A stretch of DNA of 7,796 nt, taken from Marinospirillum sp. Its GTDB lineage: Bacteria; Pseudomonadota; Gammaproteobacteria; Pseudomonadales; Halomonadaceae. Below the pieces are notes generated by a model. The model saw nothing but the letters and a program-made list of their open reading frames with translations. It had not been told where the DNA came from and did no database searches. Location of the stretch: contig NZ_JACUUA010000156.1 in the NCBI RefSeq assembly GCF_014859565.1, positions 1-7,796 on the forward strand. The letters run 5' to 3'. This document shows positions 3,595 to 5,283 of the stretch, in pieces; position 1 is the stretch's first letter, and every line of letters begins with the position of its first letter. A program made the position numbers and the translations under genes.

Positions 3595-3658
3595 GCTTAA
3601 CCAATGGCTGTTGTCGGACGCGTCTGCGCTCCGGCGCACCGCAAAGCCAACATTAAAT
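3595..3658. repeat. attC-like 64-bp imperfect inverted repeat
   Basis: The left arm (3595-3617, GCTTAACCAATGGCTG...) and right arm (3639-3658, ...AGCCAACATTAAAT) are near-complementary. Pairing is interrupted by a few mismatches and single extra bases on the left arm. The arms enclose an apical hairpin, TGCGC-TCCG-GCGCA (3625-3638). The ends resemble integron core sites. On the minus strand GTTAAGC fits GTTRRRY, and the opposite end ATTTAAT fits RYYYAAC except for its last base. The size is in the range of short attC sites. The right end shares a base with the stop codon of the minus-strand yefM'-'yoeB ORF, as expected of a cassette. The orientation is ambiguous: the core site favours the minus strand, while the extra bases fall on the arm expected for the plus orientation. 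No integrase is in the window. Confidence 0.4.
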
Positions 3659-3822
3659 CAGTAATGGTAGCAAAGCTGAGCGATCAAGAGGGTGTCGTCG
3701 ATTGTTTTGTAGACCATGCGGTCTTCTTCATTGATCCTTTTTGACGGGCTATGGTCATCGCATACTTGTTGCATCATTTGAGCTAAGTTACTGCGAGCAC
3801 TGGTGTAACTGATGGCATCCAT
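3658..3822 (-). pseudogene. In-frame fusion of YefM antitoxin N-terminus to YoeB toxin C-terminus (toxin-antitoxin remnant)
   Basis: This is a 54-codon ORF from ATG (3820-3822) to TGA (3658-3660), with GAGG eight bases upstream as ribosome-binding site. Residues 1-26 (MDAISYTSARSNLAQ...DDHSP) line up with the start of YefM (ISYxxARxNL...DHAP in E. coli). Residues 27-54 (SKRINEEDRMVY...DDTLLIA...CYHY) line up with the last 28 residues of YoeB (SRRITEEHRLVY...DDSLLIA...RYHY). The simplest reading is an in-frame deletion of roughly 340 bases that removed the rest of the antitoxin and the first two thirds of the toxin. The equivalents of the YoeB catalytic Arg65, His83 and Tyr84 remain (Arg36, His53, Tyr54), but the Glu46 region is gone. 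Arg10 of YefM, implicated in DNA binding, is kept. An active RNase is therefore very unlikely; a small DNA-binding peptide cannot be excluded. The family alignment is from memory, but the matches are clear in both halves. Confidence 0.8.
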
Positions 3823-3826
3823 TTTT

Positions 3827-3861
3827 TGTACCTCGTTTCAGAATGTACAGGAAGCTGTACG
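3827..3861. promoter_or_regulatory. YefM-type operator with GTAC cores upstream of the chimera
   Basis: TGTACA (3844-3849) and TGTACG (3856-3861) lie 12 bases apart centre to centre and form the perfect inverted repeat GTACAG-GAAG-CTGTAC (3845-3860). A third core, TGTACC (3827-3832), overlaps the ribosome-binding region. The E. coli yefM-yoeB operator is known for two palindromes with TGTACA cores at about this spacing, so this is very likely the autoregulatory site of the ancestral module. It also lies upstream of the divergent small ORF at 3887 and could affect both directions. Confidence 0.65.
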
Positions 3862-3886
3862 CAAATGATTTAACAAACGCAAGCAC

Positions 3887-4084
3887 ATGGACGATTTTTT
3901 CGATCAGGTTACGGAGTCTGGTTTCAAGTTGCATCTGATTGAGCTTCTAGATGATTTTATTGCACACCGAGGCCAATGTAACGAGTTGCCGAAAAAAGAA
4001 GGTATTGTTCGCTTCGCGGAAGGTGACTTGAGAATTGAATGGTTGCCAGACGGCTCAACTCACCTTTCCAAAGGAGACTCGTAA
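3887..4084 (+). CDS. Small hypothetical protein, 65 residues
   Basis: The ORF runs from ATG to TAA and begins MDDFFDQVTESGFKL. It is acidic at the N-terminus, predicted mostly helical in the first half (LHLIELLDDFIAH), then has a strand-like stretch ending RIEWLPDGSTHLSK. No membrane segment, signal peptide or known catalytic motif is visible, and I do not recognise the family. There is no good Shine-Dalgarno sequence before the ATG (only weak purine-rich AACGCAAG), which lowers confidence. It diverges from the yefM'-'yoeB chimera with the operator region between them, so it may be accessory DNA that arrived with the toxin-antitoxin module. It could be a complete small gene or the remnant of a longer one. 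Confidence 0.5.
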   Translation: MDDFFDQVTESGFKLHLIELLDDFIAHRGQCNELPKKEGIVRFAEGDLRIEWLPDGSTHLSKGDS

Positions 4085-4127
4085 TCCTGCCTTATTCATG
4101 AGATATAGCTGAAAGGTGGGTGTGGCA

Positions 4128-4289
4128 ATGGTATGCTTCTGCACCTGCCTTCAACCAATCGAGGGGCATCAACTGAAAGTGGCCGCCACCCTCATCGTTC
4201 ATGCCCGACAGATCAAGGTCAACTGTCCAGTCTCTGGGGAAAGTGACTTACTCCAAGATCTATGTGAATTCAGGGAAAAAAGTGAGTAA
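4128..4289 (+). CDS. Possible small ORF, 53 residues, unidentified
   Basis: An ATG at 4128 opens a frame to TAA at 4287-4289, with GGTGGG seven bases upstream as a possible ribosome-binding site. The product starts MVCFCTCLQPIEGH, continues through QLKVAATLIVHARQIKV and ends in a charged tail (CEFREKSE). Four cysteines fall in the sequence, two of them as CFC near the start, with no recognised metal-binding pattern. A stop codon lies just upstream, so it is not a long truncated ORF in this frame. It follows the 65-residue ORF on the same strand after 43 bases. I do not recognise it; it may be a chance ORF or a decayed gene. Apart from it, the interval 4085-4337 shows no feature I can support. 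Confidence 0.3.
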   Translation: MVCFCTCLQPIEGHQLKVAATLIVHARQIKVNCPVSGESDLLQDLCEFREKSE

Positions 4290-5034: not shown

Positions 5035-5283
5035 TCAGAACACTGCCCGCCCCTGTGGCGGGCTTTCCAGCAGGCGTTTTAACCTCAGCAAACCTTCCTG
5101 TAAATTGGACTGCCCTGCATCAGCCTGCGGGCCGGATTTGGGGTGGCAATTGGTAAAATCCTCAAGAGTGAATACCACTGGAGCTGGTTCAACCGCAGCA
5201 TGGGAGGCATTACAGCGGCCTGTGTGGTCATCATCCTGCAGTAATTTTTTTCTCAGGAAGGAACAATCCGCCGCGGTTATCCC
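5035..5283 (-). pseudogene. Start-less open frame, possible decayed or non-canonically started small gene
   Basis: Reading the minus strand, 82 sense codons are open between the in-frame TAA at 5284-5286 and a TGA at 5035-5037. The codons look like those of neighbouring genes (CTG, CAG, GAT, GCA common). The predicted peptide is protein-like, with FLRKKLLQDDD near the start, EPAPVVFTLEDF in the middle and a helical end, LLRLKRLLESPPQGRAVF. No ATG occurs, and the first GTG is at 5178 without a ribosome-binding site. It is therefore a chance frame, a gene that lost its 5' end, or a gene using an unusual start. It converges on the CheX-like gene one base away, and its upstream side is the ilvE leader. 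I do not recognise a family. It occupies most of the gap between the CheX-like gene and ilvE. Confidence 0.3.
5045..5066 (+). terminator. Probable terminator after the CheX-like gene
   Basis: GCCCGCC (5045-5051), a 5-base loop CCTGT and GGCGGGC (5057-5063) make a perfect 7-bp GC stem followed by only three T residues. It starts 12 bases after the stop codon. The position and stem favour a terminator, but the short T-tract makes it weak or dependent on other factors. Confidence 0.65.

Follow-up and report, generated by a model that had tools for sequence, protein, structure and literature searches.

The 54-codon open reading frame (ORF) that joins the start of a YefM antitoxin to the end of a YoeB toxin is very probably a pseudogene, the remnant of a dead and decaying toxin-antitoxin (TA) cassette that was broken by an internal deletion. 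The ORF is encoded in a 7,796-nucleotide stretch of Marinospirillum sp. DNA, which is referred to here as the window, and whose nearest relatives by its genes are Marinospirillum and Oceanospirillum. A sequence-only reading had left a choice between a dead module and a minimal operator-binding peptide; the dead module is supported by the loss of YefM Arg31 and YoeB Glu46 and by the remnants that neighbor the chimera. The features under discussion are collected in Table 1.

Table 1. Coordinates of the chimera, its cassette and the adjoining remnants in the window.
Feature	Position	Strand	Basis or description
Integron gene cassette holding the chimera	3601..3873	minus	273 bp as it stands; boundary motifs
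attC recombination site	3595..3658	minus	R'' ATTTAAT (one change from ATTTAAC), R' GTTAAGC; blastn matches
yefM'-'yoeB chimeric ORF	3658..3822 (3822..3658)	minus	54 codons; YefM 1–26 + YoeB 57–84
Chimera junction	3745/3746	minus	Two-piece DNA match to L099
Ribosome-binding site GAGG	3831..3834	minus	Sequence; GAGG also in L099 and L100
YefM-type operator	3844..3861	minus	CGTACA + TGTACA hexamers, 12 bp center to center
3' fragment of a 113-codon hypothetical gene	3890..4085	plus	91% nucleotide identity, last 196 bp
IS1380-type remnant	4086..4222	plus	Three pieces: 52, 36 and 50 bp

Sequence and Homology of the Chimeric ORF

From the ORF listing of the window, the chimeric protein consists of MDAISYTSARSNLAQMMQQVCDDHSP joined directly to SKRINEEDRMVYKTIDDTLLIAQLCYHY. 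A Pfam search matched residues 1–26 to positions 1–26 of 74 in PhdYeFM_antitox (PF02604; E = 1.6e-4, 21.8 bits against a cut-off of 29.8 bits, a lower score being expected since the match spans a third of the domain). Residues 27–54 were matched to positions 53–80 of 80 in YoeB_toxin (PF06769; E = 5.5e-6, 26.8 bits against a cut-off of 27 bits), and the YoeB half scored alone reached 28.2 bits. The NCBIfam models TIGR02116 and NF008499 split the ORF at the identical place, both at scores far under their full-length cut-offs. In protein searches, several intact YefM proteins shared every residue of the YefM half (100% identity), and intact YoeB proteins were 89% identical to the YoeB half. Together with the DNA alignment described below, these matches bear out the sequence-only reading of the ORF as the first 26 residues of YefM followed by the last 28 residues of YoeB.

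Among approximately 5.8 billion proteins searched, 29 matched: the window chimera, 24 proteins similar to YefM only (some of them truncated) and four YoeB proteins. No YefM-YoeB fusion besides the window's own was present in this search. The chimera was also compared with three overlapping sets of 390, 250 and 44 genomes, the two bigger sets being sampled from larger groups. While 47, 67 and 9 genomes, respectively, matched at an E value of 1e-5 or better, no match in any of the three sets spanned residues 1–54 and hence both halves.

In one truncated YefM, P0002 (30 aa), homology ends right after Pro26, which is also the junction residue of the chimera. A breakpoint at this position, common to both, is possibly recurrent.

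A Single Deletion Probably Accounts for the Fusion

L099, the closest intact yefM-yoeB module fetched (its YoeB is 97.6% identical to P0018), was used as the reference for the size of the deletion. Window positions 3902–3746 align with L099 2080–1924 at 88.5% identity, and positions 3745–3653 align with L099 1585–1493 at 93.5% identity. A single internal deletion of 338 bp, relative to L099, therefore separates the two at the junction. As judged by eye, the ends of the deletion have little or no sequence in common (0–2 bp).

The yefM and yoeB genes are read in different frames, and the loss of 338 bp puts both in one frame. The chance that a random deletion keeps the frame is one in three. It had been claimed earlier that keeping the frame is unusual; this does not stand, given the one-in-three chance and the presence of other yefM-yoeB remnants in related genomes, one of which (L191) is out of frame. 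A selected fusion was considered as well and rejected, both on the chance of keeping the frame and because no second in-frame case occurs in the sets searched.

Codon changes were counted between the chimera and two intact modules. Relative to L099, there are four synonymous and two nonsynonymous changes in the YefM half, and three of each in the YoeB half; relative to L100, there are 12 and none in the YefM half, and nine and five in the YoeB half. The two intact modules differ from each other by 10 synonymous and two nonsynonymous changes in the YefM part, and by 12 and three in the YoeB part. Since three nonsynonymous changes also separate the YoeB parts of two intact modules, the changes in the YoeB half of the chimera are no proof of relaxed selection. 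Counts this low, and this close to the control, do not demonstrate it.

An assembly artefact at the junction is very unlikely. Although the chimera is known from one contig only, the junction is a single one within one homologous cassette, several other deletion joints are close by, and the YoeB half has substitutions of its own, so that it is not a simple copy of a fetched sequence.

The Chimera and Its Integron Cassette

Judged by its sequence, the chimera is in an integron gene cassette, with an attC site at one end and a G^TTRRRY boundary at the other. The 5' boundary, G^TTAAATC, is located at 3874/3873 (motif GTTAAATC at 3874–3867) and the attC crossover, G^TTAAGC, at 3601/3600. The complement of the 5' boundary, GATTTAAC, falls at the yoeB stop codon, where the window has the form GATTTAAT. 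A G^TTRRRY boundary whose complement is R'' is present, with R'' one change off.

The boundary motifs were counted in 33 loci having both genes (L081–L084 and L099–L127), with 13 others, L085–L097, left out, most of which have a more distant YoeB. Allowing at most one mismatch each, GTTAAATC and GATTTAAC occur together in 11 of the 33 (L081, L099, L101, L102, L104–L108, L111 and L114); each motif taken singly is present in 13 of the 33, and L100 has neither. The upstream offset is identical in 10 of the 11 loci that carry both motifs, and the eleventh, L099, has the same offset as the window. Shuffled stretches reach a single-motif match in 3.1% (90 nt) and 1.2% (40 nt) of cases. The branch of yefM-yoeB represented by these 11 loci is apparently an integron cassette family.

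Window positions 3595–3648, which fall within the attC site, have two counterparts on a Marinobacter plasmid (E = 5e-7; 7.3 Gb of plasmid sequence searched), and an annotated integron integrase is 1.3 kb from one of them and 3.7 kb from the other. Positions 3597–3663 match a site directly after the intact yoeB gene of genome G284 with 80% identity over 75 bp, and attC-like sites are also present in Marinospirillum insulare (G011) and M. minutulum (G014). From the boundary motifs and the attC match in relatives, this branch of yefM-yoeB would travel as a cassette, of which the window holds a worn copy. A simple attC fold scan flagged neither the window attC nor the Marinobacter sites, and a pair that it returned at 3868–3944 of the window was taken for chance. 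No match to Rfam was made in the window at the gathering threshold.

An integron integrase was searched for in seven genomes that bear the module. An integrase over the cut-off is situated approximately 8 kb from the intact yefM-yoeB genes in M. celere (G007) and G284, and only a partial integrase, at approximately 5 kb, in G303. In G233 (the closest relative), G253, G204 and G373, the integrase is away from the module. No integrase gene is among the listed ORFs of the window. Neither the gene cassette and its attC site nor the adjacent deletion remnants had been mentioned in the sequence-only reading.

What the Chimera Keeps and What It Has Lost

Of 46 loci examined, YoeB was obtained from 45 and YefM from 43. 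YefM Arg10 and Arg31 are invariant in 43 of 43 relatives, and YoeB Glu46 in 45 of 45. The chimera keeps Arg10; Arg31 and everything past residue 26 are deleted, and the C-terminal stretch with which YefM neutralizes YoeB is absent. Both R10 and R31 are reported to be essential for operator binding by YefM2-YoeB (PMC4803016). On the toxin side, Glu46 is deleted along with YoeB residues 1–56, and the complete YoeB fold is gone, while Arg65 and His83 are kept; PMC3814384 gives Glu46 as the general base and Glu46, Arg65 and His83 as catalytic. The chimera also carries an R81C substitution. A cysteine occurs at YoeB position 81 in none of the 45 relatives, where the residue is Arg in 38, Gly in five, Lys in one and without a letter in one.

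Upstream of the ORF, the operator hexamers and the ribosome-binding site are kept. The earlier call of a good ribosome-binding site agrees with the GAGG listed in Table 1. The operator hexamers are located at 3844–3849 and 3856–3861, one of them altered at a single position; PMC4803016 and PMC3920265 describe paired TGTACA hexamers, spaced by 12 bp, in E. coli. A consensus scan identified no sigma-70-like promoter before the ORF on its strand, with counts that were not above those of shuffles.

An AlphaFold model of the chimera (pLDDT = 62.6, pTM = 0.24) had two helices and no strand. The control model of an intact YefM (pLDDT = 63.8, pTM = 0.35) had strands at residues 27–31 and 34–39, also with low confidence. 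Both models rest on similarly shallow alignments and their confidence values do not separate the chimera from intact YefM. The two strands of the low-confidence control model fall inside the deleted part.

With the needed residues and folds gone, as judged from sequence and literature, the peptide should not bind the operator like YefM, neutralize YoeB or cleave mRNA. That the chimera is instead an active interfering peptide, which binds a yefM operator or pairs with intact YefM elsewhere and so deregulates related modules, is very improbable. In its favor, the operator, ribosome-binding site, start codon and Arg10 are all present, and the YefM half does not differ from that of intact YefM; however, one of the two arginines reported as essential in PMC4803016 is deleted, and the chimera stands as a single sequence among the 5.8 billion proteins and the three genome sets searched. 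A putative operator-binding peptide would have little in its favor past the surviving promoter region, ribosome-binding site and Arg10. A 54-residue micro-regulator, expressed from the yefM promoter and disarming related cassettes by pairing with intact YefM or YoeB from elsewhere in the cell, is also very improbable.

Neighboring Remnants in the Window

Several deletion scars lie within about 1.7 kb, the chimera being one of them. A 65-codon ORF at 3887–4084 was considered as a partner gene and rejected, since it corresponds to the 3' portion of a 113-codon gene whose first 51 codons or so are missing. This gene is whole in two of 20 genomes searched (G010 and G012), and in G010 is approximately 1.4 kb from a broken integron integrase. 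The gene is found in several Gammaproteobacteria and has no match in Pfam or NCBIfam; the 65-codon ORF likewise has no match in the phage collection. In E. coli ET734, a relative of the 113-codon gene (74% DNA identity) is next to traN in a conjugative-transfer region, which we take to be part of an SXT/R391-type element.

The IS1380-type remnant immediately follows the truncated 113-codon gene's stop codon. Its three pieces stand 241 and 139 bp apart in M. minutulum, where the copy is itself partial: a 167-residue ORF matches the end of the transposase only (PF13701, 64.1 bits; NF033539 IS1380, 77.9 bits against a cut-off of 180). Further along, window positions 5107–5245 are the C-terminal stub of a LysE-type exporter that is a long open frame in M. 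celere. Compared to M. alkaliphilum, the window is without approximately 3.3 kb at this stub. An inspection by eye of ORFs of at least 40 aa identified no intact TA pair elsewhere in the window.

A Proposed Course of Decay

A yefM-yoeB module would have arrived as an integron gene cassette in a Marinospirillum-like bacterium. The 338-bp deletion would then have taken away the part of YefM that neutralizes the toxin, along with the first two thirds of YoeB, and by chance left the remaining ends of the two genes in frame. With the promoter region, operator and ribosome-binding site still in place, the locus may yet express a 54-residue peptide; it is probably decaying by deletion, as are its neighbors. 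Against decay stands the preservation of the frame, start codon, ribosome-binding site and operator. The identity of the YefM half to living YefM proteins suggests that either the decay is recent or the YefM half is constrained.

The window is a compact case of several deletion scars and presents one route to the death of a TA cassette, in which a single deletion removes the binding part of the antidote together with the fold of the toxin and leaves the operator, ribosome-binding site and attC behind. It is a warning, too, that decay can generate short in-frame chimeras by chance.

Comparison with Known Systems

Seven odd loci (L191–L197) were picked by eye for short-looking frames or odd spacing. 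L191, from genome G581, is a second case of an internal yefM'-'yoeB deletion, with YefM retained to about residue 74 (1–74) and YoeB from about residue 50. Truncated yefM-yoeB remnants are present at L193, L194, L195 and L197, YoeB is split over two frames at L196, and L192 has YefM without a recognized YoeB. From L191 and L193–L197, the decay of yefM-yoeB is not rare, and a kept frame is seen in the window chimera alone. The window resembles L191 in that one internal deletion joins yefM to yoeB; the breakpoints differ, and the L191 fusion is out of frame while that of the window is in frame.

TA cassettes are known from chromosomal integrons, and PMC11023631 describes 19 of them, carrying promoters of their own, in the integron of Vibrio cholerae. 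A literature search returned no relevant paper on degenerate or chimeric TA in integrons, and yefM-yoeB cassettes may well be in print already. Like the TA cassettes of chromosomal integrons, that of the window has its own upstream region, a G^TTRRRY boundary and an attC at the toxin stop codon. In contrast to them, it is a lone remnant with no second attC recognized and with its cassette gene broken. Compared to the YefM-YoeB type II module (PF02604/PF06769, TIGR02116, NF008499), the window retains 26 N-terminal residues of YefM, 28 C-terminal residues of YoeB, a paired TGTACA-type operator and a ribosome-binding site; however, the middle of both genes is deleted and neither protein is whole.
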